From a virus: a stretch of 46,491 bases of DNA. The notes under the pieces were generated by a model. That model was not told the origin of the DNA. It saw only the letters and a list, made by a program, of their open reading frames with translations, and did not search any database. Position 1 is the first letter of the stretch; every line of letters begins with the position of its first letter. Made by a program: the position numbers and the translations under genes. This document shows positions 29,989-46,099 of the stretch, one piece after another. Location: the IMG/VR virus record IMGVR_UViG_3300006751_004060, positions 1 to 46,491 of that record; one strand, 5' to 3'.

Positions 29989-29989
29989 A

Positions 29990-30976
29990 TTATTTCCCCT
30001 CTGCGTATATTCTGTCGATTATACGCATCAATTTTAATGCGTCAGTTGTGTTTCCAATCTCTACTGCTTTTTGATTTTCAATACAATCAAAAAAGTGTTG
30101 TATTTCTGAGTCCCAAGAATTATTAGCGTCGTAAGAGATACTTTCTTCATCACTCCATGTTGCCATAGGGGCTTCGGTTCGGTTCTTAACAACGGTCAAC
30201 ACTTCGGGCCCATAAGTTCCAGAAGATGTCTTGAGGCCGTTTATTGTGAAATACCCCTTTTCCAAAAAGATCTCAAATGAAAACAAGTGGCGCCACTGGG
30301 TCATTGTTGAATGAAGAGACGCTGTGACCCCCGTATCGTTGTTTTTTAGAATCGCAAATACATTGTCTTCTACGCCGGCAGTCTTCCAGTATTGATTTGA
30401 AACGAATGCGCGCACGTCATGAAAATCGTTAACCAGATATAAAAATAAATCAAGCATATGAATTCCCTGATCGATTAATATACCGCCGCCGGATAACTCT
30501 CTCTTGGCGCGCCAGCCATCGAAAAACTCTTCACTAGAACTTTTACCATAGCGGCCGCGCATCCACAAAATGTTTCCATACTCTCCGCTCTCGATCAGCC
30601 GCTTAAGTGTCATGATGCTTTCGTGATGGCGATGGTTAAAGCCGTACATCAGCACTTTGCCAGATGTTTTTTCTACATCTATAATCTCTTCTACCTCTTG
30701 TGCTGTGAGCGCCGGCGGTTTCTCGCAGAATGCGTGCTTGTTAGACTCCAAAGCTTTGATAACCAATTCTTTGTTTAAGTAATTCGGTGTACAAACAAAT
30801 ATTGCGTCCAGATTTGGGTTGCTGAACATTTCCTCATGATCTGACAGCGCACAAGAGAGGCCGGCCGTATTTTTCGGTTCAACATCATAGACTGCATCAA
30901 CAATGTGGCCGCACTTTTCAATAGCGCTTTTGCGTATTTGGCCCATTTTGCCCATGCCAATAATCCCAACATTCAT
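29990..30976 (-). CDS. Gfo/Idh/MocA-family NAD(P)-dependent sugar oxidoreductase
   Basis: The protein has 328 residues. The N-terminal Rossmann motif is GIIGMGKMGQIRKSAIE, followed by the family's EKP motif in HAFCEKPPALTAQEVEEII, and a C-terminal beta-sheet domain with GGGILIDQGIHMLDLFLYLVND (the conserved Asp/His helix). Family members oxidise or reduce hydroxyls of sugars, inositols or nucleotide sugars; the substrate here cannot be read. Its start overlaps the stop of the upstream hydroxyacid-dehydrogenase gene by 4 bases (ATGA). In this cluster it may work on a C7 or amino sugar branch, which is inference. Confidence 0.85.
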   Translation of the reverse strand: MNVGIIGMGKMGQIRKSAIEKCGHIVDAVYDVEPKNTAGLSCALSDHEEMFSNPNLDAIFVCTPNYLNKELVIKALESNKHAFCEKPPALTAQEVEEIIDVEKTSGKVLMYGFNHRHHESIMTLKRLIESGEYGNILWMRGRYGKSSSEEFFDGWRAKRELSGGGILIDQGIHMLDLFLYLVNDFHDVRAFVSNQYWKTAGVEDNVFAILKNNDTGVTASLHSTMTQWRHLFSFEIFLEKGYFTINGLKTSSGTYGPEVLTVVKNRTEAPMATWSDEESISYDANNSWDSEIQHFFDCIENQKAVEIGNTTDALKLMRIIDRIYAEGK

Positions 30977-31788
30977 AAAGACAGCTCCGCAATAAACGCC
31001 TTAAAATCTTTTGCAGTTTCAATTAAAAACTTATCGCATGTGCTGGCAACATGCGGAGTCATATAAAACAAATTGGGGTGATATTTCAACATCTTACCGC
31101 GATATGGCTCTTCCCAGTATACATCAAATGCTGCGGTAAGGCGCGCAGAGGAAATCTCTGCTTCCAAAGCCCCTTCGTTGACAATCGGGCCTCTTGCAGT
31201 ATTGATCAAAATCGCACCATCCTTCATCCAGCCAAGCTTTTCTGCGTCTATAAAATTGTGAGTGGTCGGAGTCAAAGGAATATGAAGGCTTACACAATCT
31301 GCTAATCGAAACTTCTCCTCAAGAACATCACTCGGATCCTCTGTCACATCATATGTGTCGACATGCATAAAATTAGTCATCTTAGATTGCACTAAACTTC
31401 CAATCTTCCCGGCGCCAACAATCAAAAGCCGGGTATCGCCCAAAAACCGCCTAGGCTTCTTTGACCAATCGTGTATATTCCCGGTTACCCACGGCCGATA
31501 CATCATATGAAAAATCATCTGACATGTAAAATTGGCTGTTTCCTCGTGGATATGGCCCTTGGCAGCATCAGAGGGGAGCCGAACTGATATACCGCGGCCC
31601 GCGGCCTCGGTGTAGGGCACGTTGTTGTCACCTACGCCGGCACGAAAGATACCCTTTGTGGCCGGAAAATCACTCAAGTCGATGGATTTACCTCCAAGTA
31701 GCAAGATTTCTGCTTTTTCTTTATCATCAATTATTTCCAAATCGTCGATATGACCATCTAATGTTTTCGTATTCGCCCATATTCTCAT
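30973..31788 (-). CDS. D-isomer-specific 2-hydroxyacid dehydrogenase family protein
   Basis: The protein has 271 residues from the ATG at 31788; a longer TTG start at 31818 would overlap the aminotransferase gene and is less likely. It shows the NAD-binding motif LLIVGAGKIGSLV, the catalytic Arg in INTARGPIVNEGAL, the conserved acidic region AAFDVYWEEP, and the catalytic His in MTPHVAS. The N-terminal catalytic half is shorter than in typical 310-330-residue members. Such enzymes reduce 2-keto acids or oxidise 2-hydroxy acids, as in phosphoglycerate dehydrogenase. It lies between the aminotransferase and the Gfo/Idh/MocA gene. Confidence 0.85.
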   Translation of the reverse strand: MRIWANTKTLDGHIDDLEIIDDKEKAEILLLGGKSIDLSDFPATKGIFRAGVGDNNVPYTEAAGRGISVRLPSDAAKGHIHEETANFTCQMIFHMMYRPWVTGNIHDWSKKPRRFLGDTRLLIVGAGKIGSLVQSKMTNFMHVDTYDVTEDPSDVLEEKFRLADCVSLHIPLTPTTHNFIDAEKLGWMKDGAILINTARGPIVNEGALEAEISSARLTAAFDVYWEEPYRGKMLKYHPNLFYMTPHVASTCDKFLIETAKDFKAFIAELSL

Positions 31789-31792
31789 ATTA

Positions 31793-32953
31793 TTATAAAG
31801 ATTTCCTAAAAATATCAATCGCTAAATCAATTTCTGCTTTTTTTACATTCAAATTCGGCCTCAATCTAATGGATTTTTTGCCTGTTTTGTTGCAAATAAG
31901 GCCATTTTTATATAAATCTTCTATTAAGATATCACGTTTTTCGTCGGTTGGCAAGTCAAAACCGACTATTAGGCCACAATTTCTTAAGTTTAATACGCCA
32001 TCCATCTCTGACAAGCCATTTATAAGTCTTTTACTTTGCTTGTTGACGTTACCCAATATATTGTATGCTTTGTATGCCATCATGACATATTTACATCTCA
32101 CCATATCAGCGACATCGCCATCCCATGTGACCTCAAGTCTAACAGACTTCTTTGGGCTAAAGATTTCTCCATACTTTTCTTTTGCCATTATACCAGAGAG
32201 TTGGGTTTTCTTGCCGAAAATCAGAATATCTGGCTCGACATCTAAATGTTCAAAATACCAAAGTTTTCCGGTACCGCCAAATCCTATTTGTATTTCATCA
32301 AAAACCAGAGGTACATCATATTCATCACACATTTCACGAAGAGATTTAAAAAACTCTTTATCAAAATGAATGTCCCCTGCGCTGCATTGAATCGGCTCAA
32401 CCAGCAGACACGTGGCGTCTTCGTTCATTAGAGTTCTGGCTACTTCTATTAAATCTGGGCGTATCTTTGTGGAGTAGGCCTCCGGTAATCCAGACAGTCT
32501 TGCGTCGGCGCCCGGGAATCTAGAAGTGACAAATCCTCCGTAACTGTTGATGCCGTGAAAACTATTTTCAAACGAGACAATATTCGGAGTGTGATAATTT
32601 TTGTATTCCAGACATGTTTTGATGGCAGCTTCGACTGCCAAGGCACCGGTACAGGAATAATGGAAATGTTTAAACAATCCCTTTCCTGCATATTCTTTAA
32701 ACATTCTATCAAACTCTATTGTCTCATCGGAAACGAACTCGCAGTTGTTAATCTTAAAACTAGAAACACGCATGTACTCATCGACAAACTCTTTGGTTTT
32801 AAAAATCGGATGATTATATCCGAGAGGCAACGAAGCGTACATACCAAAGAAATCCAGCAGTTCTCTGTCTGAATTTTTGTCATACAAATAGGAACCGTGA
32901 CTTTTCTCAAAGTCAACATTGATTCCAAGTTTAGTACTACGTGCAATATTCAT
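31793..32953 (-). CDS. Class-III PLP aminotransferase, L-lysine 6-aminotransferase-like
   Basis: The protein has 386 residues. FEKSHGSYLYDKNSDRELLDFFGMYASLPLGYNHP is very close in form to bacterial L-lysine 6-transaminase (Lat). Other Lat-like features are HFHYSCTGALAVEAAIKT (cofactor phosphate loop), LLVEPIQCSAGDIHF, VFDEIQIGFGGTGKLW (Asp that contacts the PLP ring nitrogen), and FGKKTQLSGIMA with the Schiff-base Lys among K248/K249. Lat makes alpha-aminoadipic semialdehyde from lysine. In a sugar cluster it could instead transaminate a keto sugar, or supply a lysine-derived substituent; the sequence cannot decide. Start ATG at 32953 is one base from the upstream SDR stop. Confidence 0.88.
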   Translation of the reverse strand: MNIARSTKLGINVDFEKSHGSYLYDKNSDRELLDFFGMYASLPLGYNHPIFKTKEFVDEYMRVSSFKINNCEFVSDETIEFDRMFKEYAGKGLFKHFHYSCTGALAVEAAIKTCLEYKNYHTPNIVSFENSFHGINSYGGFVTSRFPGADARLSGLPEAYSTKIRPDLIEVARTLMNEDATCLLVEPIQCSAGDIHFDKEFFKSLREMCDEYDVPLVFDEIQIGFGGTGKLWYFEHLDVEPDILIFGKKTQLSGIMAKEKYGEIFSPKKSVRLEVTWDGDVADMVRCKYVMMAYKAYNILGNVNKQSKRLINGLSEMDGVLNLRNCGLIVGFDLPTDEKRDILIEDLYKNGLICNKTGKKSIRLRPNLNVKKAEIDLAIDIFRKSL

Positions 32954-32954
32954 A

Positions 32955-33677
32955 TTAAATGTTTACAAATCCGCCATCAGCAACAATGTTCTGTCCTGAT
33001 ATATAAGTGTTCAGCCGGCTAGCCACAAACAATACAACTCGTGATATCTCATCCACCTCTGCCATACGGCGCATTGGAATCTGTTGTGCTATCTCTTTCA
33101 TTCTTTCTGGACCCAGCACATTCCGAGTAAGATCGGTGAGCGTGAAGCCCGGAGAAACAGCGTTAATGAGTACGTTATATTGTGCCAGCTCGGCTGCTGA
33201 CGCAAGAGTTAGCCCTCTTAGACCAAACTTGCTACTAGAATAACTGGCGCGCTTGGGTGTGCTTATCTCGCTCCATACTGAGGCGATGTTAACAACACGC
33301 CCATACTTTCTTCTAACCATGGAGTGAGAAACAGCCTGTTGAACCTTGAAAGGTGCTGTTAGGTTTACTTTAATGATATCGTTCCAATCTTCGTGTTTAA
33401 CTTCGCGGAAAGGATCGATTCTATTGATACCTGCATTATTGACGCATACATCAAATGTTTCATTCGATATCATATTGAGAAAATCGTCGGTTGAAGAATC
33501 ATCCAGAAAGTTAACCGGAACAAATTGTATGTTTTGGCTGATCTTTCCTTTGGGTTCTTTTGTGCCCGTGATAATAACTTGGGCGCCGAGATCGACAAGA
33601 TCTTCGGCTATCTGTTTGCCGATGCCGCGAGTGCCACCGGTGACGAGGGCATTCTGATTTGTAAAATCAATTTTCAT
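32955..33677 (-). CDS. Short-chain dehydrogenase/reductase (FabG-like SDR)
   Basis: The protein has 240 residues from the ATG at 33677, which has GAGG six bases upstream; an earlier ATG at 33689 lacks a good site. It has the TGGTRGIGKQ cofactor motif, NNAGI, the catalytic Ser in VVNIASVWSE, and YSSSKFG (YxxxK). The C-terminus (PGFTLTDLTRNVLG, DGGFVNI) is standard for classical SDRs. It would reduce a keto group on a sugar or nucleotide sugar; the substrate is not visible. It overlaps the upstream gene by 11 bases. Confidence 0.88.
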   Translation of the reverse strand: MKIDFTNQNALVTGGTRGIGKQIAEDLVDLGAQVIITGTKEPKGKISQNIQFVPVNFLDDSSTDDFLNMISNETFDVCVNNAGINRIDPFREVKHEDWNDIIKVNLTAPFKVQQAVSHSMVRRKYGRVVNIASVWSEISTPKRASYSSSKFGLRGLTLASAAELAQYNVLINAVSPGFTLTDLTRNVLGPERMKEIAQQIPMRRMAEVDEISRVVLFVASRLNTYISGQNIVADGGFVNI

Positions 33678-34629
33678 TACTTGCCTCATAACTTTTTAAT
33701 AATTCTTCTAAATCAGCGTACTCAAACAAGTCATTGATGATGGATCCTGGGGAACACGATATTACTTCAAAAGTTTCATCCGAGCACAAATAGCCGTTGA
33801 GGTCCCAAGATGAGTATCTCGAAATGCCATATTCGTCCAGCACATTTTCACCTGGGCCGCCACCGTTGGCAATAATGTGCCATGGTTCGAGGTAGTAGCT
33901 CGGGTCGCCGAAATCTTTGCCAAGATCGAATTCATCAACATGAAAATAATCTGGATGGAAGTGTTGCAAATCTTGGCCGGCGAGAAGAGACTCCTTCCGG
34001 CTGGAATATTTGGCATCAACTCCAAGTATAATAGCTCTTTTATACCCCAAGGCATATGCCAAGTTTACCGCAAAGGCGCCTCCAGAACCGCGAAAATGTA
34101 AACCGTATCCGCGTTGGCCTTCTTCCCAAAAATCTATTGCATGGTTCTGACCACCGGGGAGGCGGTGGGTCTCGGCAAGGCGATGAAACCTTTTTTGCGC
34201 CAGTGCAGAATCTACAAAGCACGATTCATATTTTTCAATAACCTCATCTCCCCATGAGCTTTGGCCACGAGGCGGCATTAAAATAAGTTTCGACTCGGCA
34301 TGTGGGCCGGGTCCTAGACGATTGGGTGTTTGAGTGAATTCGTCGCTAGCGGCCGGAAGATAGTCGGCTAAAATAAAAAACCTTTCAATCTCGCAGTCTG
34401 CTCTCATCATTGGCAAGATGGCCGGCTCAAAAGTCTTTTGTATTAATTTCGCATCAATACAAAGATAGTATTTCGGCCAGAAACCCCAATCATCGTATGC
34501 GATATATTGTCGATTAAGAGAAATGGTGTTTAGCCCTTTTAATAACTTAATATCAACTTTATTTAAACATGGGCCGGAGCCAATAACAAACATCGTCTCA
34601 TTCAGAGATATTTCATCAGGCCCCTTCAT
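33667..34629 (-). CDS. Putative glycosyltransferase, GT42 sialyltransferase-like / MptE-like (DUF115) fold
   Basis: The protein has 320 residues from the ATG at 34629, preceded by GGAG; a longer ATG at 34671 would overlap the upstream gene by 56 bases. The start (FVIGSGPCLNKVDIKLLKGLNTISLNRQYIA, then FWPKYYLCIDAKL) and the later GSGGAFAVNLAYALGYKRAIILGVDAKY match the layout of GT42 sialyltransferases (GNGPSL.., R.N.f, then 'SG.....A..LGYKEIYL.G.D') and of MptE-like DUF115 proteins. Both fold families handle CMP- or nucleotide-linked substrates. Its place directly after the CMP-nonulosonate synthetase supports a transferase role, but it lacks experimental support and could be a DUF115 protein of another function. 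Confidence 0.65.
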   Translation of the reverse strand: MKGPDEISLNETMFVIGSGPCLNKVDIKLLKGLNTISLNRQYIAYDDWGFWPKYYLCIDAKLIQKTFEPAILPMMRADCEIERFFILADYLPAASDEFTQTPNRLGPGPHAESKLILMPPRGQSSWGDEVIEKYESCFVDSALAQKRFHRLAETHRLPGGQNHAIDFWEEGQRGYGLHFRGSGGAFAVNLAYALGYKRAIILGVDAKYSSRKESLLAGQDLQHFHPDYFHVDEFDLGKDFGDPSYYLEPWHIIANGGGPGENVLDEYGISRYSSWDLNGYLCSDETFEVISCSPGSIINDLFEYADLEELLKSYEASNEN

Positions 34630-35755
34630 TAACGTGATCTCCATCTGGATATACATGCGCCACATCTTCACGACTGACTGCTAAACGAATGGCTGGCCTG
34701 TCTCCTGCTGCTGTGATTTTATGCACCACGCCTTTTGGAATGAAAACCACGTCATCTTTCTTGACAATCTTGGTTTCGCCGGCGATCTCCCATTCCCATT
34801 CGCCATCTACAATATACCACCACTCATTCCAATCTGGATGATAGTGACGTCGGTTTCCCTCGCCGGGCTGCTGATGGATCAAGGTGGCACTGTTGCTCTC
34901 GGTATTAACTACGCGGTGGCTCCATGACTTGGTTTTGTCAAAAGAGGCCCGAATATTGGCCACATTAACAATAGACTCGTTAGATTCTGCTAGGTTGTTG
35001 TCTTCGACCCCATCGCGCGCAAGGATGCTGGGTACGTCAGCCTCAGAGTGGTGTTGGCCATAGTACTGTGGCTTATATGCTCCCCGAGCGGTGGAGCGGG
35101 CCACAAACTCGGCTAATTGAAAGTCTTGCTCGTTGTCTACATCGATGGTGGCAAGACCGCTCAAGACAAAACAGCCAACGTTTCCATCTCCGCCGTGATA
35201 TCCACAACTGTACTTTTTCATATTTTCTAAATAGTTATCCTTTCTCCATCCCATCAATCCGCAGGCATATGCCTGAACAGGGTATAGCTCCTGAGAGGGA
35301 GGTGATATCTTCTTTTGATCGAAATTGACCGGGGTGCCCTGATATACACACTCAATCTGCTGATTAGAGACTGAGATTAAGGTGTCTGCCTCGGTATCTA
35401 CCATTGTCTGCGTAAACTCTTTAATTTCTTCCGCCGTTATAAAAGGGGATGTTGGGAGCACCTGTACGACAACGTCACACTCTGTGTTGTTCAAAAAATC
35501 TTCCGTGAAGTGATCGTTTGTGGCGCCATCAGTTGAAAGCTGGCTTGGTCTTTTGTAGAAGGTCACCCCTTCATTCTCGGCTATCTCCCCTATGATATCG
35601 GATTCTGAATTAACATAAATTTCATCAAAACAGTCGGCTTCTTTGGCTGCTCTGATTATATAGCTAATCAAAGGTGTGCCATTTAATAGGCGAATGTTCT
35701 TTTTCGGTATTCTCTTGCTGCCAAATCTGGCAGGAATCATTGCTACAACTTTCAT
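34616..35755 (-). CDS. CMP-nonulosonate (sialic acid type) cytidylyltransferase fused to a cupin
   Basis: The protein has 379 residues from the ATG at 35755, which has GGAG seven bases upstream and overlaps the previous stop by one base (TAATG). Residues 1-215 are NeuA-like: AMIPARFGSKRIPKKNI (CTP-binding loop), VVVQVLPTSPFI, and IDVDNEQDFQLAE, the conserved acidic end. A linker (about 220-265) joins a cupin at about 275-365 (RRHYHPDWNEWWYIVDG, VVFIPKGVVHKI) with metal-type histidines. NeuA-type enzymes activate nonulosonic acids with CTP for transfer. The cupin half could be an epimerase or isomerase-like or metal-binding sugar domain. The fusion is unusual; the NeuB and sialyltransferase-like neighbours support the CMP-sugar reading. 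Confidence 0.88.
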   Translation of the reverse strand: MKVVAMIPARFGSKRIPKKNIRLLNGTPLISYIIRAAKEADCFDEIYVNSESDIIGEIAENEGVTFYKRPSQLSTDGATNDHFTEDFLNNTECDVVVQVLPTSPFITAEEIKEFTQTMVDTEADTLISVSNQQIECVYQGTPVNFDQKKISPPSQELYPVQAYACGLMGWRKDNYLENMKKYSCGYHGGDGNVGCFVLSGLATIDVDNEQDFQLAEFVARSTARGAYKPQYYGQHHSEADVPSILARDGVEDNNLAESNESIVNVANIRASFDKTKSWSHRVVNTESNSATLIHQQPGEGNRRHYHPDWNEWWYIVDGEWEWEIAGETKIVKKDDVVFIPKGVVHKITAAGDRPAIRLAVSREDVAHVYPDGDHVNEGA

Positions 35756-36723
35756 TAAATTTCTCCTTCCCATTTAGTAATAGTTAAGTTATAAAATTCT
35801 TTTAAAAATTTGTCCATCGTTTTAATTTTTTCCTTATCCTCTTTTGTTTTATCGACCAAAATGCGATTTATTGATAAGTTAAAATTGTTCGCTAAATAAT
35901 CATCAACCTGCACCTTAGTACCGTGGTGATGTTCCAAGATCTTCCCAAAGTAATCTATTTGGGGCTGCGCAGCATGTAAATCGAATCTTAGAGAGGCTCC
36001 CGTAGGTCTATTATTCACTATTTCTATAGGATCATACTTTATTGTTTGTTCTAAGTGTGCAGAATGATATGCATCTCCTTGATTTGTGCCCATATTAAAA
36101 AAAGTAAATCCTGCAATATAAAGCTCCTTAATATCATAGTTCAACAAGGTTACTATCCCCAGCAGACCAGTATTGCACGTGGTGCCCACTTCCTTGTCTA
36201 CCTTGAAGAGATATCCATCGCAAACATTATGAAACGGAACATCCCATTCGTTAATGATTGCTTCACCCTTTCTAATGTCCCACATTGAAAGATTTGGTTG
36301 TATAAGATACTTCAATGATTCGACGAAGGGCATGTTATCTTTGAGGGATCTAATTTTGTTAAAGTTAAGACAACTAACTAGAATATCAGTTCTCTTCCCA
36401 TAGTCTTCCCATAATTCTTCTGGAATGTCATACGCTGTGTTTATTCGGATAACAAGATCGTATGAGTCGATCTTTTCTCCCATGCCGGTTCCGACCAAGC
36501 TTGGGGCCGGACCGACGAACGCAATCGTCTTGCCATCAATCAGTTTCTCTAGCTCTAAATCTTTCTCGTAATCTTTGAACTCGCTAACAAGATAATCTGC
36601 GCGGCGCCCTAAATCTTCCAACTGCCATTCGGGAGGCATCGAAGAGCAGATCCAAGGCGGCGTCTCTTCCTCCAGCGGAATCCCAACAATATCTTTCTTT
36701 AAGTTACCGTACCATTTTACCAT
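35755..36723 (-). CDS. Sialyltransferase-like glycosyltransferase (GT29 family)
   Basis: The protein has 322 residues. Residues 65-98 (TIAFVGPAPSLVGTGMGEKI then DSYDLVIRINTAY) match sialylmotif L of GT29: 'vavVGns..L.gs..G..Id..d.ViR.N'. A second block, GTTCNTGLLGIVTLLN followed by ELYIAGFTFFN, corresponds to sialylmotif S, and the HSAHLEQ region follows where GT29 enzymes have their downstream His. GT29 enzymes transfer sialic acid or related sugars from CMP. The adjacent gene makes the CMP sugar. An AGAGG sequence lies about 5 bases before the ATG. GT29 was long thought mainly eukaryotic, with bacterial and viral members known; a viral copy here is notable. Confidence 0.82.
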   Translation of the reverse strand: MVKWYGNLKKDIVGIPLEEETPPWICSSMPPEWQLEDLGRRADYLVSEFKDYEKDLELEKLIDGKTIAFVGPAPSLVGTGMGEKIDSYDLVIRINTAYDIPEELWEDYGKRTDILVSCLNFNKIRSLKDNMPFVESLKYLIQPNLSMWDIRKGEAIINEWDVPFHNVCDGYLFKVDKEVGTTCNTGLLGIVTLLNYDIKELYIAGFTFFNMGTNQGDAYHSAHLEQTIKYDPIEIVNNRPTGASLRFDLHAAQPQIDYFGKILEHHHGTKVQVDDYLANNFNLSINRILVDKTKEDKEKIKTMDKFLKEFYNLTITKWEGEI

Positions 36724-37670
36724 ATAAACCTCTCTTTATAGTGTTTTACTATTTTGATTATTTCATCATCAAAATTCTTAATCGGCTCCCAGCCTATCGC
36801 CCTTAATTTAGAATCGTCAAGAGCATAACGCACATCTTGTCCTTCACGCGAATATGAAAAATCAACATAATCGTTCCAAGTGTATTCTTTATCGTCATAA
36901 AAGTTGCTAATAATCTTTAATACAGTTTCAATATTTTTCTGCTCAAACCCACCGGCGACATTGTATATCTCTCCTATCTCTCCATTTTCAATAATAGCTA
37001 TAACAGCTGACGCGGTATCGGCCGCGTGCAACCAATTTCTTACTGGGGCACCCCCATCGTGAAGTCGAATCTTCTTGTCGCGCTGTAAATTTTTTATGGA
37101 TAGTGGAATAAGTTTCTCTGGATACTGGCCAATCCCGTAATTGTTGGTTGGCCTTATAATATTGTATCTGATGCCATAGGTTCTAGCCCATGCAATAACA
37201 AGCATGTCTGCGGCTGCTTTTGAGGCAGAGTATGGATTGCTTGGTTTTAAAATATCAGTTTCGATATGTGCATCTCCAAGAATGTCGCCATATACTTCAT
37301 CAGTGCTAAAGTGTAAAAAAACGGGTCGTTGGGCACAGTTCTCTGGCTTGTGGCGAATCAGGTCCAGCAAGTTTTGTACTCCCACAACATTGCTGCTTAT
37401 AAACTCTTTGCTATCGATGATGCTATTTCCCACGTGAGACTCTGCTGCCACATTTATAACATAATCACAATCGCGCAAATAAGCAAGTTCTTTAATGTCG
37501 ATTTCTTCAAAACGAAAATTATCATAATCTCCAAACTCATCCAAAAGGGAGCGATCTGCTGCATATGTACACTTGTCTACTCCATAGATCATCCAGCCCT
37601 TTTGTAGGCACGCTCGTGTCACATAGGCGCCAATGAAACCTAAGCAGCCTGTGATGTAGACCACTTTCAT
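36717..37670 (-). CDS. Nucleotide-sugar 4,6-dehydratase (RmlB-like, extended SDR)
   Basis: The protein has 317 residues. It has the NAD motif YITGCLGFIGAYV (an unusual Cys in place of the second Gly), the conserved NVAAESHVGNSI, the dehydratase catalytic STDEVYGD (Thr-Asp-Glu), and NPYSASKAAAD (YxxxK). NNYGIGQYPEKLIPLSIKN is typical of RmlB. RmlB-type enzymes convert an NDP-glucose to its 4-keto-6-deoxy form. It is directly followed (in transcription order preceded) by the E1-like 3-dehydrase gene with a TAATG overlap, so the nucleotide (dTDP or CDP) may be the one the dehydrase uses; that is inference. Confidence 0.88.
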   Translation of the reverse strand: MKVVYITGCLGFIGAYVTRACLQKGWMIYGVDKCTYAADRSLLDEFGDYDNFRFEEIDIKELAYLRDCDYVINVAAESHVGNSIIDSKEFISSNVVGVQNLLDLIRHKPENCAQRPVFLHFSTDEVYGDILGDAHIETDILKPSNPYSASKAAADMLVIAWARTYGIRYNIIRPTNNYGIGQYPEKLIPLSIKNLQRDKKIRLHDGGAPVRNWLHAADTASAVIAIIENGEIGEIYNVAGGFEQKNIETVLKIISNFYDDKEYTWNDYVDFSYSREGQDVRYALDDSKLRAIGWEPIKNFDDEIIKIVKHYKERFIW

Positions 37671-39007
37671 TATAAGCTGCCGAAAAATTCATCGACTGAA
37701 TTCTTGATGTATTCAAGCTTTTCGTCCGTTAGGCCGGCATATGTTCCCAAGAAAAACGAATTGGTGGTAACCAGTTGTGCGTTGGGGAATGTTTCGTTCA
37801 TGTCGCCGTATGGAGTCGCCATGTGAACAAATCCAGGATGAGCCAGAATATTCCCTGAGAAATATGAACGCGTCTGAATCTTTGCCGCCTCAAGGTGGCC
37901 CACAATATCAAAACGCGAGAATGGTGCATCTTCCTTAATTGTCAACAAAAATGCGAACCAACATGGATCTGCTTTGTCAGTTGCAACAGGCATATGAAAA
38001 TATTGCCCATAAGGCTCGAATATGGCCCGTAGCCGGGCCCAGTTCTCTCTTCTGGCAGCATCTAGCCTTGGAAGCTTTTGAAGCTGCTGTAGGCCTATTG
38101 CGGCCTGTAAATCTAGTGGCTTAAGGTTATACCCTATTTCATCGAATACATATCGATGATCATAAACCGCTTCGGGGTGTCCCGGAAGCCAATTCTTAAA
38201 TCTCATTCCGCATGCTGTTGATGCTGTCACACATCCCGGCTTCATCGAGTTGCAGTAGCATGCCCGGCCCCAGTCTCGCATGCTAGCAAGAATGGTTCTG
38301 GTCTTCTGGCTGTTGGTGGCGATGAAGCCTCCTTCGCCGGTAGTCATGTGGTGGGCAGGAAAGAATGAGCACGTCGACATATCACCATATGAGCCTAGCT
38401 TCTTTCCGTCGTAATATGAGCCCAGTGCATCGCATGCGTCTTCCAAAAAGACAAGATCATATTTCTCCACAAGAGCCATAAGCCTATCCATGTCTGGTGG
38501 ATTACCAAGCACGTGCGCAAACATAATACCTCTGATCTCTGGATCTTCTTCCAAAAGCTTTTCAACAATATCCAAATCCAAATTAACGCTTGGCAGTTCC
38601 ACATCAACAAACACTGGTACCAGATTGTTCTGAATCAGGGGATTGATTGTCGTAGGAAAACACACAACTGGGGTGATAACCTTGTCGCCATCTTTTAATT
38701 GTCTGCCAAAGCGCTTTGATTTTGTGGCGGCAACCATCAGCAAGTTAGCCGAGCTTCCCGAGTTAGTAAGGGTTCCGTGAAGTTTTCCCAAGTGCTTCGG
38801 AAATTCAATTTCAAAGTTGCGGCCGTTCTTGCCGAAAATCATCCACCCATCCAGCAACACATTTACTGCCGATAGGTATTCCTTTTCATCAAAAATAGGA
38901 CCCGAATAGGATACCCAGTCTTGGCCGGCTTTCCATTCTTCGTTGTTTGTTTTCTCTATAATGTATTCTTTAACTAAATCTAATATTTTCTGTTTCTTAT
39001 GCTGCAT
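37670..39007 (-). CDS. NDP-4-keto-6-deoxyhexose 3-dehydrase, E1/RfbH type
   Basis: The protein has 445 residues, the length of RfbH/DdhC (about 437) rather than of ordinary DegT-family aminotransferases (about 370-390). The usual PLP lysine is replaced by His (SFFPAHHMTTGEGG, H219/H220), the hallmark of PMP-dependent 3-dehydrases. Cysteines C192 (LEDACDALGS), C250, C252 and C259 (RACYC...PGC) fit the E1 pattern C-X57-C-X1-C-X7-C almost exactly, so a [2Fe-2S] cluster is expected. It removes the 3-hydroxyl from a 4-keto-6-deoxy NDP-hexose, giving a 3,6-dideoxy sugar once an E3-type reductase supplies electrons. No E3 reductase gene is visible in the window. Confidence 0.9.
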   Translation of the reverse strand: MQHKKQKILDLVKEYIIEKTNNEEWKAGQDWVSYSGPIFDEKEYLSAVNVLLDGWMIFGKNGRNFEIEFPKHLGKLHGTLTNSGSSANLLMVAATKSKRFGRQLKDGDKVITPVVCFPTTINPLIQNNLVPVFVDVELPSVNLDLDIVEKLLEEDPEIRGIMFAHVLGNPPDMDRLMALVEKYDLVFLEDACDALGSYYDGKKLGSYGDMSTCSFFPAHHMTTGEGGFIATNSQKTRTILASMRDWGRACYCNSMKPGCVTASTACGMRFKNWLPGHPEAVYDHRYVFDEIGYNLKPLDLQAAIGLQQLQKLPRLDAARRENWARLRAIFEPYGQYFHMPVATDKADPCWFAFLLTIKEDAPFSRFDIVGHLEAAKIQTRSYFSGNILAHPGFVHMATPYGDMNETFPNAQLVTTNSFFLGTYAGLTDEKLEYIKNSVDEFFGSL

Positions 39008-40250
39008 GATTTCTCGCTATCTTGCTCAGTCCGTGTAAGGTTTCATCTATCGCGGAGCAATGCACGATACATGATTTTTGTGCATATGTCGTCATCAACG
39101 TTGACAATGCTGGTATGCTTCTCGGAATACCTCCGCTTAATATAACCCAATTAAGGTCGTTATTACAATCGAACTTGTCGATATATTTTACATATTGTTG
39201 AGTAAGACTCCCTATCAATGATGTTAAAATGTTATCAATATTAAAATTATTTTCTCTGATGCCTCTTATTGAGCCGCCGTCGGAATATCCAAGCGCGCTT
39301 TCGAAAATAGCAAAATCTATTTCAAGAGTAGAATTTACAATTTCCTCATGAGTATAATGTCTCATCTTTTCCCAGCAATCAAAACCAAGTTCAGAAAAAA
39401 GATTTAAATATGCACGCAGAGCGCGACCAGCAGGTATGTGTGTTACTGTATGCAAGTGGTTGTCTCCGATGTACGGCCTATATTCGATGCCGGCCGGCGT
39501 CTTTTTCGTCTCTGATATTCTAGAAACTTGTGAGCCTGTTCCTATGTTTACCAAAATACTATCGAAGTCTGCGTTAACAGCACCGTATGTCGCACTCTGG
39601 AGATCTCCCACTCCCGTATAAATCGGCGTGTCATTGTAATAGCCGGCTATCTCTATATTTGGTGTCCCATTATTAAACATCAAATCACATTGGAATAAAT
39701 CCGAAATATAAGGCGAAATCTGTTCCCTATTCACATCGTAGAGCCCGGTGGAAGCTAACATGCTGTTGTGTGTTATGTTTTCACTCTTGCCGGAGATGTT
39801 CGCTAAAAGATCCGGCAATGTCATAACTTTTATTTTTTGGCCAAAAGCTTTCTGTGTGTTAACCATGTGATATAAATTATAGATTGGCAAGCCAATGCGA
39901 CTCTTCATTCCTGTTATCTTTCTAAACTCGTCTAGCTCCACTATTGGGCCGCGGTGGTCTTGCCAGCTAATGTAATCTGTTAGCGGATTATTATTCTTAT
40001 CTGCTACTACAAAGCCGTGCATTTGAGATGAAATAAAAATAGCCTCATACTCGTGAATCCTGTATGATTCACAAATATCTTTAAATATTTCTGTAAGTCT
40101 TTCTTGAGATACTACGAATTCGCCAAGCACCTTAGAAGTATTCTGGGGCGCTTCAATTTTTCGAAAATCGGAATGCTGCTCAGTGGTAACGTCATAGGTG
40201 ACCGACTTTATATGAGTTGCTCCAAAATCAACTAAGAGTGTTTTATTCAT
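38997..40250 (-). CDS. FGGY-family carbohydrate kinase, sedoheptulokinase-like
   Basis: The protein has 417 residues. DFGATHIKSVTYD is the N-terminal phosphate-binding strand-turn; SSQMHGFVV and WQDHR (residues 96-100) resemble sedoheptulokinase (SHPK). GVGDLQSA carries the catalytic Asp (D216), and LVNIGTGSQVSRI and VILSGGIPRSIPAL are the ATP-binding elements. FGGY enzymes phosphorylate C3-C7 sugars. A C7 product would suit the neighbouring cyclase and the GmhA-like isomerase, which use sedoheptulose 7-phosphate in known pathways. It overlaps the 3-dehydrase by 11 bases and the cyclase by 8. The exact sugar is inferred. Confidence 0.82.
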   Translation of the reverse strand: MNKTLLVDFGATHIKSVTYDVTTEQHSDFRKIEAPQNTSKVLGEFVVSQERLTEIFKDICESYRIHEYEAIFISSQMHGFVVADKNNNPLTDYISWQDHRGPIVELDEFRKITGMKSRIGLPIYNLYHMVNTQKAFGQKIKVMTLPDLLANISGKSENITHNSMLASTGLYDVNREQISPYISDLFQCDLMFNNGTPNIEIAGYYNDTPIYTGVGDLQSATYGAVNADFDSILVNIGTGSQVSRISETKKTPAGIEYRPYIGDNHLHTVTHIPAGRALRAYLNLFSELGFDCWEKMRHYTHEEIVNSTLEIDFAIFESALGYSDGGSIRGIRENNFNIDNILTSLIGSLTQQYVKYIDKFDCNNDLNWVILSGGIPRSIPALSTLMTTYAQKSCIVHCSAIDETLHGLSKIARNHAA

Positions 40251-41352
40251 TTATTATCCCATTGATGGTTTGCTGTATTTGTAGTAGTATTTCGTCGTTT
40301 AGTTCTCTTCTTTGGAACTTGGTATGCCCAAGTGAATCCATGTAGATAAACGTCGCGGAATTTCCTATCGTCTTCTTATCGCTTCTTAGTACTTCACCCA
40401 GTTGAGCGAAATCGATCTTGCTCAAAGCCTCGCGATCCTTCTCTTCTATCAAATCACAAACACATTTATTAACAGATGGATCTGAAAACTCGAACAAATC
40501 ATTGACGATCTTTATGCCTATCGCAACTGCCTGGCCGTGAGGGATCTCATATTTGGTTAGAGATTCGATTGCGTGGCCAACAGTGTGTCCATAATTGAGG
40601 CTGCGCCTGACATCCAACTCAAACTCATCTTTTTCTACGATCGCTCTTTTAATATGCAATCCATTAACTATCAATGTCTTAAAATCATCAAAATTCTTTA
40701 CTTCGTTTCCATCTACAAGTTGTTGATATAACTCGATAAAAGGCTGGCCGCCGATAATAAAAATCTTCATTATCTCGCCTAGTCCAGATTTTATCTCTTG
40801 CGGCTCAAGTGTATGCAGGAAGTTGGTGTTTATGATAACTTCCGATGGAGACGAAAACAAGGCTAGCTGATTTTTAGACTTCTTATAATTTATGCCTGTC
40901 TTGCCGCCAATGCAGCTATCGCATTGAGATAGTAATGTGGTCGGAACAAACTTCCAGTTAATGCCGCGTTTATAAATTGAACCAACAAAGGAACCTATAT
41001 CTTGCGTGATGCCGCCGCCGACCACTACCATTTTCTCACCCTTGGTGAACTTGCATCGATGTAAAAAATCAGCGGCTAGCAAAACACTTTCTATCGTTTT
41101 TGTATTTTCAGTAGCCTCCAACACAAATATACGGTCGCGATTAAAGGAGAGCCTATCCCAAATAAGCTCTAAGACATTCTGATCTATCAATAAGACGTCA
41201 TCATCACCAAGAAGATTATTAACAGTTTCGCTAATATCACATGTTTCGAAGTTAACTTCATAACTTGTAGGTACCGAACTGACAATAAAATTGTCCGTAA
41301 TATCTGCCGGCTTCAAATTAAATGAGGAGTCTTCGATCTTAAATGTGTTCAT
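40243..41352 (-). CDS. Sugar-phosphate cyclase of the 3-dehydroquinate synthase family
   Basis: The protein has 369 residues. It has the NAD-binding GGGITQDIGSF (residues 112-122), VPTTLLSQCDSCIGGKTGIN, and a metal-binding triad of E193 (GLGEIMK), H256 (NYGHTVGHAIE) and H272 (IPHGQAVAIGI). These match the DHQS/EEVS/valiolone synthase superfamily. GGKTG and GHTVGHAIE favour the DHQS branch; the usual 'GVVGDL' of DHQS reads GITQDI here, and 'EVIK' reads EIMK, so the substrate may differ. Members cyclise DAHP or sedoheptulose 7-phosphate. Next to a sedoheptulokinase-like gene, a C7-cyclitol route is an attractive inference. It lies 4 bases from NeuB. Confidence 0.85.
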   Translation of the reverse strand: MNTFKIEDSSFNLKPADITDNFIVSSVPTSYEVNFETCDISETVNNLLGDDDVLLIDQNVLELIWDRLSFNRDRIFVLEATENTKTIESVLLAADFLHRCKFTKGEKMVVVGGGITQDIGSFVGSIYKRGINWKFVPTTLLSQCDSCIGGKTGINYKKSKNQLALFSSPSEVIINTNFLHTLEPQEIKSGLGEIMKIFIIGGQPFIELYQQLVDGNEVKNFDDFKTLIVNGLHIKRAIVEKDEFELDVRRSLNYGHTVGHAIESLTKYEIPHGQAVAIGIKIVNDLFEFSDPSVNKCVCDLIEEKDREALSKIDFAQLGEVLRSDKKTIGNSATFIYMDSLGHTKFQRRELNDEILLQIQQTINGIINE

Positions 41353-41356
41353 AATA

Positions 41357-42469
41357 TTATTTTATACAGCGAAGGCCGCGTTTTGTAATTCGACTTTGTG
41401 TGTCTGAGTCTTCTTTATGGGCACTGTCAATATCTTGAATGACCATGGGATCGTCGCGCTTGCAATCTCGCAACAACTTCTCGCCCTCCATAAACTCACG
41501 AGGTGAAATCTGCCCTTCTTGGAGTGGCACTGCCAAATATACATCATCCGTTGTAATCACATGGCCGGTGCTAAGATTCCTCTTGAAATAGACTCCCCTA
41601 ACAAGGGCGTCCAAATACTTGGTTTCTTTTTCGGAAATTACTCGGCGCTCAATCTTGGAGCCACCACACATCTCCTTTGCCTTGTGGAAGGCTTTAAACC
41701 ATTCGCCGGCCTGATGTGGCAGAGAGCAGTACTTGGAAACGGTGCGCTCATCCCCTTCTGGGTATTCAATGTCCACGTGTCGCTCCCATGTGCGGGCGCC
41801 CTTGGCATATGACAACATCATCGATGAAGTCCAGTCATGATATTCGTGAGTTGAGAGGCCAACTACAATATCTGGATAGCGCTGACATAAGAAATCAACC
41901 TGATTGAGTTCTAACTCACAATCCTCAGACGGGTAGTTGGATACACAGTGGTTCAAGGCAATCGGAATATTTCGATTCGCGAAAAACTTAACCACATCGT
42001 CGATACTCTTAAGAGATGCTCCGCCAGTCGATAAAATAACCGGCTTCTTGGTGCGCGCGATCTTCTGCAGAAGAAACCAGTCGTTAATATCCGAGCTAGC
42101 GACCTTAATGATCTCAATCCCAAGCTCTACACACCATTCAACTGCCCTTTCATCAAAGGCAGTCGCCATTGGAATACAGCCGGCCTTCTTGATGGCCGTG
42201 ATTAACACAGCATGCTGGCTCTTTTTTAGCTGAGTTTTTTCAGTCTTCCAAATATATCTAAGATCCTCGCGACCCTTAAAGTCCTTGTGGACAAAATTTG
42301 GCACATCTCGAAATTGCAGCTTCATTGCTGCTTTTACATTATTGTATCGAACCACTTTTCCGTATTCGGAGATAATCTTCTTGCCACGCTTCAGATCTCC
42401 CCAATGATTATTGGCGATTTCAAGCACAAATAAGTTTTCAAATAATTTGTTGGCTTCATTTTTTTTCAT
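41357..42469 (-). CDS. NeuB-family nonulosonic acid synthase
   Basis: The protein has 370 residues, close to the usual 340-350 plus extensions. N-terminal TIM-barrel features are LEIANNHWGD (metal/substrate loop), MATAFDERAVEW, IIKVASSDIND, and VILSTGGAS. CVSNYPSEDCELELN corresponds to the 'CtS.YP' loop. The usual 'GlSDHT' reads GLSTHEYHDW and 'EkHft' reads WERHVDIE, so it is a divergent member. The C-terminus (about 295-355) is an antifreeze-like SAF domain (GVYFKRNLSTGHVITTDDV, REFMEGEKLL). NeuB enzymes condense PEP with an N-acyl mannosamine-like sugar to make sialic, legionaminic or pseudaminic acid. The CMP-synthetase and GT29 genes are downstream. Confidence 0.88.
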   Translation of the reverse strand: MKKNEANKLFENLFVLEIANNHWGDLKRGKKIISEYGKVVRYNNVKAAMKLQFRDVPNFVHKDFKGREDLRYIWKTEKTQLKKSQHAVLITAIKKAGCIPMATAFDERAVEWCVELGIEIIKVASSDINDWFLLQKIARTKKPVILSTGGASLKSIDDVVKFFANRNIPIALNHCVSNYPSEDCELELNQVDFLCQRYPDIVVGLSTHEYHDWTSSMMLSYAKGARTWERHVDIEYPEGDERTVSKYCSLPHQAGEWFKAFHKAKEMCGGSKIERRVISEKETKYLDALVRGVYFKRNLSTGHVITTDDVYLAVPLQEGQISPREFMEGEKLLRDCKRDDPMVIQDIDSAHKEDSDTQSRITKRGLRCIK

Positions 42470-43310
42470 TTTTTATTCCTTGTAAAAATTTATATACTCT
42501 CAATATTCCACTCTCTAGTCCATATAGGTTTATTCCTAAAGACGATAATCGTTCCGAAGATCCGGTATATGAAAAATCAGAGTCTTTGTCAATAAGCTTA
42601 ACATTGTTTGGGCGTCCTGTCAAGGTTTTTATTGCCTCTGCAATCCCAAGTAAATCAAGTTTTTCTTCATAACACAAATTTAAATCAAGCGGAAAGCCTT
42701 CTTCAAACCGAGTCAAATAATATATAACCACCTTATATAAATCTTCAATATAAAAAAAGTCCATTTTTTTATTCGAATGCACGATCATCTCTTCTTCACG
42801 AAGGTGCCGAATACAATTTGCTTTTATCATCCGATCTGACAGCTCTTTTTCGCCAAAACAATTGAAAATTCTTAGATTCACGATGTTGTCGTTAATGTCG
42901 TGGATTCTTTTTGCAATCAGATTTTTCGAAAGCCCATAATAATCTCGCGGACACTCATTTAATACATCCCCTTCTCTCGCTTCGTCTATATCTTTAGCTC
43001 TATCAAACGCTGCGCCAGAACCAAAATTGATCATCATCTTAAACTTGTCTCGATGGACAGCTAGATTCTCAAACATCACAATATTCTCGTACAGATCGGC
43101 ACTCGTATCGGCTATAGTTCGGCGTCCGCCGCGGACTGCTGCATGTATAACATACTCTATATCATTAGTTTTAAACATTCTTCTGCATGCTTCAGAATCT
43201 AGCACATTTAGATTCTCGCGGGAACCTTGAATCACACCATATCCAAAGTCTTCTAACCTTTTAGACAGAAAAGAACCTAGATAGCCATTCGCACCAGTGA
43301 CCAAAATCAT
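42456..43310 (-). CDS. NAD-dependent epimerase/dehydratase family protein
   Basis: The protein has 284 residues. VTGANGYLGSFL is the NAD-binding motif and DYYGLSKNLIAKRI holds the YxxxK catalytic pair. INFGSGAAFDRAKDI takes the place of the usual Ser-rich strand. NLRIFNCFGEKELSDRMI and FFYIEDLYKVVIYYL are family-like. It probably acts on a nucleotide sugar as an epimerase or 4-reductase; it could be the reductase that ends the branched-chain sugar pathway, but that is inference from its neighbour, the TPP enzyme, whose stop overlaps this start by 4 bases (ATGA). Confidence 0.85.
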   Translation of the reverse strand: MILVTGANGYLGSFLSKRLEDFGYGVIQGSRENLNVLDSEACRRMFKTNDIEYVIHAAVRGGRRTIADTSADLYENIVMFENLAVHRDKFKMMINFGSGAAFDRAKDIDEAREGDVLNECPRDYYGLSKNLIAKRIHDINDNIVNLRIFNCFGEKELSDRMIKANCIRHLREEEMIVHSNKKMDFFYIEDLYKVVIYYLTRFEEGFPLDLNLCYEEKLDLLGIAEAIKTLTGRPNNVKLIDKDSDFSYTGSSERLSSLGINLYGLESGILRVYKFLQGIKNEKK

Positions 43311-45043
43311 AACTTCATGTCATCCAGCTTGCCAGGTATAATAGAGCCATCTGGCCCGGGACTTCCGACCACCTTTGGTTCGTGTATTTCATTAGGATCT
43401 GACATTACTTCGCACAAAAGAGGGCCATTGTAAGATAAGACGTCGCCCAGAACGTCATCTATTTCATTGTTCTTGGAAATCTTAAAATATTTCAAACCAT
43501 ATGCGTTAGCTATCTTCTCAAGATCAGGGAAACTGACACCAGAAGATGGGCCTGTGGCCACCATTCTGCCGCCAAGATAAGATTCCTGGGTCATTTTAAT
43601 CGATAGATATCCCTGATTATTCATCACAATCAGCTTAACTGGCAAGTTGTGATGTACTAATGTTTGTAGTTCTTGGATATTCATTTGCAGGCTGCCGTCT
43701 CCCTCCAGGCAAACTACCGGATCTTTATCGTTCGCAAAACACGCACCAATGGCTGCTGGTAGCCCGTAGCCCATCGCGGCACAACCAGTATTGGTGAACA
43801 TCCTTTGGTCGCCTCTGAGGCGCATGGCATGCATTGTAACCACATTTGCAGAACCGTCGCTGGTGATGATGGGAATCTCGCCGTCATTGAGTTCGCTGAG
43901 TCTATCAATCAGGACATAATTGCTGACATACTTCTCATTCTCAATATGCTTGTCCAATACGATTCTTTGTTTGGAGAACATTTCTTTGCACTCGCTTTGC
44001 CATTCCGAGATGTCTCCTGCTGATGCCTCATTTCTAAGCATCATATTAAAGAACTCTCTTGCATCAGAACAAATGGTCAGATCTGGGTGTAGGTTTTCTT
44101 TTCTTAATTCGTCGGGATCAATATCAACATAGACTTTATATGCATTTCGGCCGAAATCTTCATGATCGTAACCCGTCTGTTTTACCGTTAGGCGAGATCC
44201 CACACAAATAATCAAATCACTTTTCTGAAGAATATGGTTTCCCGCGGGTTGGCCGAGCACACCAAACCGGCCGCAATAATGTTCATAATCTTCATTAACC
44301 AAATCATTCCCATTGATTCCTGTTATAACAGGAATCTTAGTATATTCCAGAAATGTTCTCATCTGGTTAACAGCGTTTGACAAACGCACGCCATTGCCAA
44401 CAATCAAAAGTGGCTTTTGGAAATTTCGAAGGCGCCCAAGTACTTCAACAAACTCTGATGGAGGCGGCTTTGGAATGCCAAAAGAATTAGGGCGCCCAGA
44501 GCGCAAGTTTTTTTCTTCAATCTGTGTTTTTTGTATATTTAGGGGAATATCCAGCCATACTGGGCCGGGTCGATTGTTGGTAGCGGTAATGCAGGCCATG
44601 TCCAAGTGGTATTTAATGTCTTCTGCTTTCTCTACAGTTGCGGCGTATTTTGTAAGTGGACGCACTACATTGATAATATCCACTTCTTGATCTCCAATCT
44701 GCCTTACGTTGAGGCCGGTCGCTCCAAGAGTCTGATGCAGGGCAACTTGTCCTGAGATGAATATTGTTGGAATAGAGTCCGTCCAACATCCCATCAGGCC
44801 TGTGATGGCGTTCGTACCGCCGGGTCCAGTTGTTACAATGCAGGCCCCCAGGCCATTAGAAAGGCGGGCATAACCTTCTGCGGCGATGGCGCATGCCTGT
44901 TCGTGATGGTTGCACACATATTCTAGTTCTTCTGACTTGCCAATCGCGTCGATTAAGTGCATGCAGCCACCGCCCGAAATTAGAAATACGTGCTTTACGC
45001 CTTGTTCGGCGAGATATTTCATAATGTAATCTGATACGTTCAT
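43307..45043 (-). CDS. TPP-dependent enzyme, acetolactate synthase-like
   Basis: The protein has 578 residues from the ATG at 45043, in ATGA overlap with the HAD gene; a TTG two codons earlier is less likely. Glu48 (NHHEQACAIAAEGYA) is the catalytic glutamate; VTTGPGGTNAITG is typical of the family. EGDGSLQMNIQELQ through IVMNNQGYLSI (about 445-475) is the GDG...NN thiamine/metal motif. ALS-like enzymes decarboxylate pyruvate and add the C2 unit to an acceptor. In sugar clusters a homologue, YerE, adds this unit to a CDP-3,6-dideoxy-4-keto-hexose to make yersiniose. The E1-like dehydrase nearby fits such a role, but ordinary acetolactate synthase cannot be excluded. Confidence 0.88.
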   Translation of the reverse strand: MNVSDYIMKYLAEQGVKHVFLISGGGCMHLIDAIGKSEELEYVCNHHEQACAIAAEGYARLSNGLGACIVTTGPGGTNAITGLMGCWTDSIPTIFISGQVALHQTLGATGLNVRQIGDQEVDIINVVRPLTKYAATVEKAEDIKYHLDMACITATNNRPGPVWLDIPLNIQKTQIEEKNLRSGRPNSFGIPKPPPSEFVEVLGRLRNFQKPLLIVGNGVRLSNAVNQMRTFLEYTKIPVITGINGNDLVNEDYEHYCGRFGVLGQPAGNHILQKSDLIICVGSRLTVKQTGYDHEDFGRNAYKVYVDIDPDELRKENLHPDLTICSDAREFFNMMLRNEASAGDISEWQSECKEMFSKQRIVLDKHIENEKYVSNYVLIDRLSELNDGEIPIITSDGSANVVTMHAMRLRGDQRMFTNTGCAAMGYGLPAAIGACFANDKDPVVCLEGDGSLQMNIQELQTLVHHNLPVKLIVMNNQGYLSIKMTQESYLGGRMVATGPSSGVSFPDLEKIANAYGLKYFKISKNNEIDDVLGDVLSYNGPLLCEVMSDPNEIHEPKVVGSPGPDGSIIPGKLDDMKL

Positions 45044-45333
45044 GACCAATCATCCGTGTTCATGTTTTTGTCATCAATAAACAAATCGTAGTAAGGTTTT
45101 CCAAATTTTAGATCATGATATTTGACGCCCCATTCAGCAAATTGCTTCTCGGTTACCTCTCTCCAATCGATGCCGGTCACAGTTCCACGGGCGGTCCAAT
45201 AGACAATGGTGTTTCCTTCGTCATATAGTTTATTCGCCTTCTCGATGTTCTCCAAGATAGGCTGGGCTGTGGAATATTCTGGCTTGTCAGGAGATTTGCA
45301 TATGGTCTCGTCGATGTCGATATAGATAATCAT
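45040..45333 (-). CDS. Small HAD-superfamily phosphatase-like protein
   Basis: The protein has 97 residues. IYIDIDETIC gives the HAD DxDxT motif (D6, D8, T10), TIVYWTARG the second motif, and GKPYYDLFIDDKNM the third and fourth (Lys and Asp-Asp). Such short HAD proteins occur in capsule and LPS clusters, where they may remove phosphates from sugar intermediates. A phosphatase for a heptose or nonulosonate 9-phosphate would fit this cluster, but the substrate is unknown. The 13-base upstream gap is A+T only except one base pair and gives no clear promoter. Confidence 0.85.
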   Translation of the reverse strand: MIIYIDIDETICKSPDKPEYSTAQPILENIEKANKLYDEGNTIVYWTARGTVTGIDWREVTEKQFAEWGVKYHDLKFGKPYYDLFIDDKNMNTDDWS

Positions 45334-45346
45334 ATTATATTATAAC

Positions 45347-46099
45347 CTATTCGGCTTGTGGCTGCCACTTTTTTTTCCAATATTCTTGAATAACACGGTC
45401 GTAATCTATTTCTTTTTTACTTTCATGAACTCTCCACGTGCATTGTTTGCCGTGCCATCGGTAATAATACCCCAGATGTTTGGGTACCGGGTATATCAAT
45501 ACTCCATTGTCCGCTAAACAACAAAACATGTCATAATCTGCTGCACCGGCGGGGGTTATATCATTTTCCTTGTGGGCTTCCATTACTAAATGATCATAAA
45601 CATCGCGATGATAAATCACCGTGGGAGTGCAAACGGGGCTTCTCTCCATGCATTGTTTTTTAAAGTCTGCCAATCCTTTATATGAGTTTTGTATTTTATT
45701 AACTTGAACTCCGTTTTGAACTCCTGCTATATGGCTTTGTATACATTTTATTTTTTCTGGGTTATGTAGAATAATTTCCATACAGTTGGAAATATAATCT
45801 TTTGATACATAATCGTCCGACGCAATAAATGTGAAATACTCAGCATCAATGGTGTGGAATGCGTGGTCAAATGCCTCTCTATATGAATTTGGATATATAT
45901 TTTTAATCTTGAAGACATTCATTAGTATGCCGTTCTTTGCAAGATCGACTAAATATTCAAATGTCTCATCGGTGCTTTCGTTGTCATATGCAAATATCTC
46001 AAAGTTTTCGTAATCTTGGGCTGCCACAGATTCGATGCACTGATCGACAAACTCCATTGAGTTGTAACAGGGAACTATGATAGCGACCTTCGGCTTCAT
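45347..46099 (-). CDS. Family 2 glycosyltransferase
   Basis: The protein has 250 residues. It opens with KVAIIVPCYNSMEFVDQCIESVAAQDY, the standard GT-A nucleotide-binding start, then IFAYDNESTDET (donor-binding Asp), and FIASDDYVSKDY, the metal-binding Asp-rich motif. The C-terminal part is variable, as usual for acceptor specificity, with YYRWHGKQCTWR near the end. It would transfer a sugar from an NDP donor during assembly of the glycan; donor and acceptor are not identifiable. The ATG at 46099 overlaps the upstream stop by 4 bases (ATGA). Confidence 0.88.
   Translation of the reverse strand: MKPKVAIIVPCYNSMEFVDQCIESVAAQDYENFEIFAYDNESTDETFEYLVDLAKNGILMNVFKIKNIYPNSYREAFDHAFHTIDAEYFTFIASDDYVSKDYISNCMEIILHNPEKIKCIQSHIAGVQNGVQVNKIQNSYKGLADFKKQCMERSPVCTPTVIYHRDVYDHLVMEAHKENDITPAGAADYDMFCCLADNGVLIYPVPKHLGYYYRWHGKQCTWRVHESKKEIDYDRVIQEYWKKKWQPQAE

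Follow-up and report, generated by a model that had tools for sequence, protein, structure and literature searches.

A NeuB-family synthase and a YerE-like thiamine enzyme in a phage glycan island

When a phage carries a NeuB-family synthase, a CMP-sugar synthetase and a sialyltransferase-like gene in one apparent unit, does it make and transfer a sialic acid? The question arises from a 46,491-base virus fragment in IMG/VR that carries T4-like baseplate genes and is called the window here. A preliminary description read these genes, together with a second possible transferase, as one sialylation route. All four are intact minus-strand open reading frames (ORFs) at the coordinates given below, and the CMP-sugar activation and transfer part of that reading is plausible. 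The membership of NeuB in it is not supported.

The window and its sugar genes

The glycan island comprises ∼20 sugar genes over ∼19 kb (27499-46491), all on the minus strand. From the lower coordinate, it encodes a GDP-mannose 4,6-dehydratase (27499-28491; TIGR01472, 455 bits, above the cut-off of 415), a GDP-fucose-synthase-like epimerase (28481-29410; PF01370; NF047922, 193 bits, below the cut-off of 500), a SIS-domain (GmhA-like) isomerase (29407-29988; PF13580), a Gfo/Idh/MocA oxidoreductase (29990-30976; PF01408), a D-2-hydroxyacid dehydrogenase (30973-31818; PF02826), a class III aminotransferase (31793-32953; PF00202) and a short-chain dehydrogenase (SDR; 32955-33689; PF13561) that is syntenic in related phages. 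The interval that follows (33667-42469) was the subject of the preliminary description; it also includes AroB-like, FGGY kinase, RfbH and RmlB-like genes, which were not weighed there. Just beyond it sits a thiamine-diphosphate (TPP) enzyme (43307-45049) with three TPP-enzyme Pfam domains and GDG and NN motifs; between it and the interval lies an NAD-dependent epimerase/reductase (SDRepi1; 42456-43310; PF01370) that recurs in many phage TPP loci. A family 2 glycosyltransferase (45347-46099; PF00535) follows. A simple hydropathy scan predicted no transmembrane segments in 20 island proteins. The island is best explained as a set of soluble sugar-nucleotide enzymes that form at least two units.

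The window's gp6-like protein is nearest, among 50,697 phage records, to those of Microcystis phage Mel-JY01 and Flavobacterium phage immuto. The tail gene region holds two very large ORFs, 2-9706 (at least 3235 aa) and 13471-20424 (2317 aa), the latter with no Pfam or PHROGs matches. Three adjacent ORFs (21522-22736, 22742-24130 and 24131-25516) have a similar N-terminal stretch (DWxxFTD...SLDLYG...) and diverge beyond it; the second has an M23 peptidase match and the third a weak VanY match. A late sigma factor resembling T4 gp55 is encoded at 25811-26524 (PHROGs E 5e-5), and 13 of the 17 related phage loci have it conserved beside the island.

CMP-sugar genes and the NeuB-family synthase

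The CMP-sugar synthetase (34616-35773) bears out its earlier description as NeuA-like. It matches PF02348 with 84 bits against a cut-off of 22.6, has a NeuA-type motif, and finds NeuA structures in the PDB whose matches cover its N-terminal part. It scores 100 bits with PseF and 26-55 bits with KdsB, both below the curated cut-off (205.7 for PseF); a KdsB identity was dropped because of the lower scores. A feature absent from that description is the C-terminal cupin (PF07883). In three loci (L064, L065 and L067) the cupin has an ORF of its own next to that of the cytidylyltransferase, which makes it look like a functional partner.

The neighbouring GT29-like gene (35755-36723) also supports its proposed family. 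The PF00777 match (27.6 bits, cut-off 23) spans only 52 residues, in the sialylmotif-L region. An AlphaFold2 model made with 12 homologues (pLDDT 84.8, pTM 0.84) has GT29 sialyltransferases as all of its best 30 PDB matches in Foldseek, at modest TM scores of 0.35-0.49, with GT42 next. By this model the putative transferase is predicted to have a GT29 fold, a kinship that leaves the CMP-sugar used unspecified. Some relatives (L056, L057, L058, L062 and L063) hold the GT29-like domain inside a longer ORF of 498-641 aa, and their records also carry a second PF02348 protein. The second putative transferase (33667-34671) does lie beside the synthetase as proposed; its likeness to sialyltransferases consists of weak MptE-like and PHROG alpha-2,3-sialyltransferase profile matches and of a low-confidence model (pLDDT 63.7) whose structure matches are topped by GT42 CstI/CstII.

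Searching with the cupin-fused synthetase turned up 17 phage loci, on fragments of 24-157 kb, several of which have most of the window's island gene order in common with it. In all 17, a GT29-like match is found no more than 0.6 kb from the synthetase, and the class III aminotransferase accompanies the synthetase in 16. Because a GT29-like and a putative GT42-like gene flank the synthetase and the former keeps so close to it throughout, this sequence evidence makes a unit for CMP-sugar activation and transfer credible. NeuB was not seen with it elsewhere: the 17 records yielded no PF03102 match, and the two NeuB-bearing phage records no PF02348 match. The two genes are thus not conserved together in the visible sequence, a mutual absence that falls short of proof because all records are fragments.

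The NeuB-family synthase (41357-42469) was correctly placed in its family, with 123.9 bits to PF03102 against a cut-off of 22.1. It falls far below the equivalog cut-offs, at 119.7 versus 399.65 bits for TIGR03569 and 114.7 versus 340.25 for TIGR03586. Relatives gathered by NeuB similarity alone come from two viral and 46 bacterial subfamily loci; the tree of the subfamily cannot be safely rooted because its four outgroup rows are very long. The residues of PEP binding, metal binding and catalysis (E25, K53, T110, K129, S132, Y186, S213, H215 and H236) are kept in 56/56 subfamily members. None of the 56 keeps D247, which we take to be a sugar-recognition position and which is replaced by Ser, Ala, Thr or Gln, and none has the G[PT]D motif, present in all four of the other NeuBs compared. 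R314, which contacts ManNAc and places its N-acetyl group in NeuB and whose alanine mutant is inactive (PMC6795526), is likewise kept in none, Val or Ile standing in its place. The retention of the PEP and metal residues together with the loss of Arg314 and Asp247 suggests that this subfamily carries out PEP chemistry with another sugar as substrate.

What accompanies this NeuB is the TPP enzyme. It is present in all 46 subfamily loci that span 4 kb or more, at a median gap of 0.9 kb; two NeuB loci without it are fragments of 3.2-3.3 kb, and in two others (L032 and L033) the TPP enzyme is a more distantly related one (31%). In 28 genomes, a TPP enzyme lay in the contig neighbourhood of 28/28 subfamily NeuBs versus 1/34 other PF03102 proteins (Fisher 8e-17). 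A SAR86 locus (L040:14509-16265) has a TPP-linked NeuB and, ∼5 kb on, a canonical NeuB beside a CMP-synthetase.

These observations bear on the route first proposed, in which NeuB would make a nonulosonic acid from a host precursor, the synthetase would activate it, and the GT29- and GT42-like enzymes would attach it to glycans of the virion or of the host. Consistent with that route are the single apparent unit, the greater nearness of the PF02348 protein to PseF than to KdsB, the two predicted sialyltransferase-like folds that adjoin it, and the PEP/metal residues of NeuB. However, NeuB and the synthetase part company in related phages, NeuB travels with the thiamine enzyme instead, and both recognition residues are missing from every subfamily member. 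The island genes that were scanned in this fragmentary record also yielded no recognisable NeuC or Pse/Leg precursor gene; that NeuC was not visible had been noticed in the preliminary description. We consider the route unlikely, and NeuB a poor candidate for a maker of sialic acid.

The thiamine enzyme and its changing partners

In the PDB, JanthE (8rph, E 9e-114) is the best match to the thiamine enzyme encoded in the window. JanthE is a YerE-like carboligase of a type whose physiological substrates have yet to be identified (PMC12188165). The window enzyme's kinship with YerE and JanthE is borne out by this similarity and by the RfbH-type 3-dehydrase in the same unit. That PLP- and iron-sulfur-dependent enzyme (37670-39007) scores 471 bits with the NCBIfam RfbH model, above the cut-off of 423, and its active-site His and four iron-sulfur Cys align with those of E1 (3bcx).

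Two scans with the thiamine enzyme yielded 89 distinct viral loci, 79 of which contain RfbH. One of three further enzymes may join them: 37 loci have PanB, 11 have NeuB and nine have an aldolase of the HpcH/HpaI type, with zero overlap (P values of 0.0017 and 0.006, computed ignoring shared ancestry). Profiles confirmed the PanB of locus L059 and, likewise, the aldolase of L108. Partner labels track the TPP tree, with 10 changes versus 69 for shuffled labels, a clustering that near-copies inflate. The remaining 32 loci, some of them incomplete, have none of the three, and in 14 of these a DJ-1/cupin pair takes their place. Not every locus, therefore, has a donor-maker, and pyruvate itself may be used. 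The DJ-1/PfpI protein and/or the mannose-6-phosphate-isomerase-like cupin lies upstream, and the loci concerned (L113-L119, L122, L130, L133, L140, L147, L158, L171 and L177) form one tree clade.

The three partners have a product class in common. NeuB-family products are 4-hydroxy-2-oxo acids in the same sense as those of PanB and HpcH, and CDP-4-keto-3,6-dideoxyglucose is the sort of keto-sugar that RfbH produces. PanB and HpcH yield 4-hydroxy-2-oxo acids (PMC7610986), and the YerE-like enzyme ErwE prefers such acids as donors, which it adds onto CDP-4-keto-3,6-dideoxyglucose (reviewed in PMC12247030). Together, the product class of the partners, the donor preference of ErwE and the keto-sugar of RfbH lead to a model in which NeuB supplies the donor for C-branching. 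The model arose from the PanB gene in L059, and the wider scan that came later served as its test, with the 32 loci that have no such partner setting a limit to it.

A possible branched-sugar pathway and its relation to known systems

According to this model, an RmlB-like NDP-hexose 4,6-dehydratase (36717-37670; TIGR01181, 290.8 bits, below the cut-off of 365) and RfbH would produce a 3,6-dideoxy-4-keto sugar nucleotide. NeuB would join PEP to an aldehyde or aldose, forming a 3-deoxy-4-hydroxy-2-oxo (ulosonic) acid, which the YerE-like enzyme would decarboxylate and attach at the 4-keto carbon, creating a long C-branched sugar that SDRepi1 probably tailors. The FGGY-family kinase (38997-40250; PF00370) and the AroB-like sugar-phosphate cyclase (40243-41352) probably act on the same carbon skeleton. 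Alongside, the cupin-fused cytidylyltransferase would activate an acidic sugar for transfer by the GT29-like and/or GT42-like enzymes, with the class III aminotransferase probably belonging to this CMP-sugar unit. Neither RfbF (CDP-glucose synthetase) nor the RfbG dehydratase was recognised in the window, itself a fragment, so that the CDP-3,6-dideoxyhexose pathway is incomplete; with an RmlB-like dehydratase in place of RfbG, the nucleotide is uncertain. Neither a membrane flippase nor a polymerase came to light, and cytosolic decoration of virion parts is therefore more likely than a host-surface polymer. Family membership, conservation, gene context and the missing recognition residues are observations, whereas we infer every substrate, the donor role of NeuB and the target of decoration. 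Counting against the model is the presence of NeuB and the CMP-synthetase within one apparent transcription unit in the window. On balance, we see about even chances that NeuB makes the donor with which a keto-sugar derived through RfbH is C-branched, and that CMP-sugar transfer belongs to a separate unit beside it.

The AroB and FGGY steps sit somewhat awkwardly in the donor model, because a cyclised acid is no longer a 2-oxo-acid donor. NeuB, FGGY and AroB might instead form a shikimate-like route, in which an ulosonate is phosphorylated and cyclised with loss of phosphate to a carbocyclic part of the sugar. The AroB-like protein (PF01761 and PF24621; TIGR04425, 298.7 bits, below the cut-off of 400, for which the literature search found no publication) keeps DHQS-like GGKTG, GLGEIMK, GHTVGHA and DKK motifs, and the NeuB fold is related to that of 2-keto-3-deoxy acid synthases. 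In the tree, the window's AroB forms a group (support 99/99) with its counterparts from bacterial NeuB/TPP loci, and FGGY and SDR genes occur in some of those loci too. However, AroB and FGGY are missing within 10 kb in most NeuB/TPP loci, so this cannot be the general role of NeuB, and the cyclised product could not be a donor for the thiamine enzyme. We regard the shikimate-like route, too, as improbable.

The same tree sets the window's AroB apart from the AroB-like genes that stand next to the CMP-synthetase in related phages. Compared with L059, the window has NeuB, AroB and FGGY between SDRepi1 and RfbH and lacks AroB between the SDR and the aminotransferase, a difference that looks like module exchange. 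Single-sequence patterns confirmed no AroB relatives in viral contigs. Finally, that the contig is bacterial or chimeric, with an island that is not phage DNA, is very hard to believe and was dropped, since, close bacterial relatives of NeuB, the TPP enzyme and RfbH notwithstanding, the window has baseplate genes on the island's strand and the same gene order recurs in 17 other viral contigs, mostly running into the same downstream phage genes.

More tentatively, the donor model extends to phages and bacteria at large, which may build modular long C-branched (perhaps carbocyclic) sugars by letting a swappable NeuB, PanB or HpcH feed a matching YerE-like enzyme. If so, a subfamily of ‘sialic acid synthases’ would really be donor synthases, and that label, when taken from PF03102 alone, would mislead for the whole subfamily. 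JanthE-type thiamine enzymes would gain testable donor candidates, phages would turn out to be rich in C-branching enzymes (89 distinct loci in the scans made here), and the model would make a definite prediction about the sugar that these virions carry.

A literature search on phage nonulosonate or LPS genes found nothing directly relevant. The window can be compared with several known systems. Sugar clusters of cyanophages and Flavobacterium phages likewise bring phage-borne aminotransferases, epimerases and glycosyltransferases together, including RfbH relatives; the 50,697 phage records, in contrast, gave only two distant matches to NeuB, of which one lies in a bacterial contig, and no matches to the GT29-like protein. 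Nonulosonic (sialic, Pse and Leg) pathways, with NeuB/PseI/LegI, NeuA/PseF and GT29/GT42 enzymes, have the NeuB fold and its PEP/metal site in common with the window, as well as a PF02348 synthetase, a GT29-like transferase and a putative GT42-like one. They differ in that no precursor genes were recognised among the scanned genes of the island, its NeuB is without R314 and D247 and far below the equivalog cut-offs, and NeuBs of its type are not co-conserved with the synthetase. The nearest solved relative of this NeuB is the SpsE-like protein of Chromobacterium (3g8r, E 4e-63), a structure of unknown function. Similar in plan are the C-branched pathways of the yersiniose and erwiniose type, built on RfbH with YerE or ErwE; the window, too, has an RfbH above the cut-off and a YerE-like enzyme in one unit. 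ErwE takes 4-hydroxy-2-oxo-acid donors (PMC12247030), the class proposed here. The window's version lacks RfbF, has extra AroB-like and FGGY genes and replaces RfbG with an RmlB-like dehydratase; it is borne by a phage, and its putative donor-maker belongs to the NeuB family.
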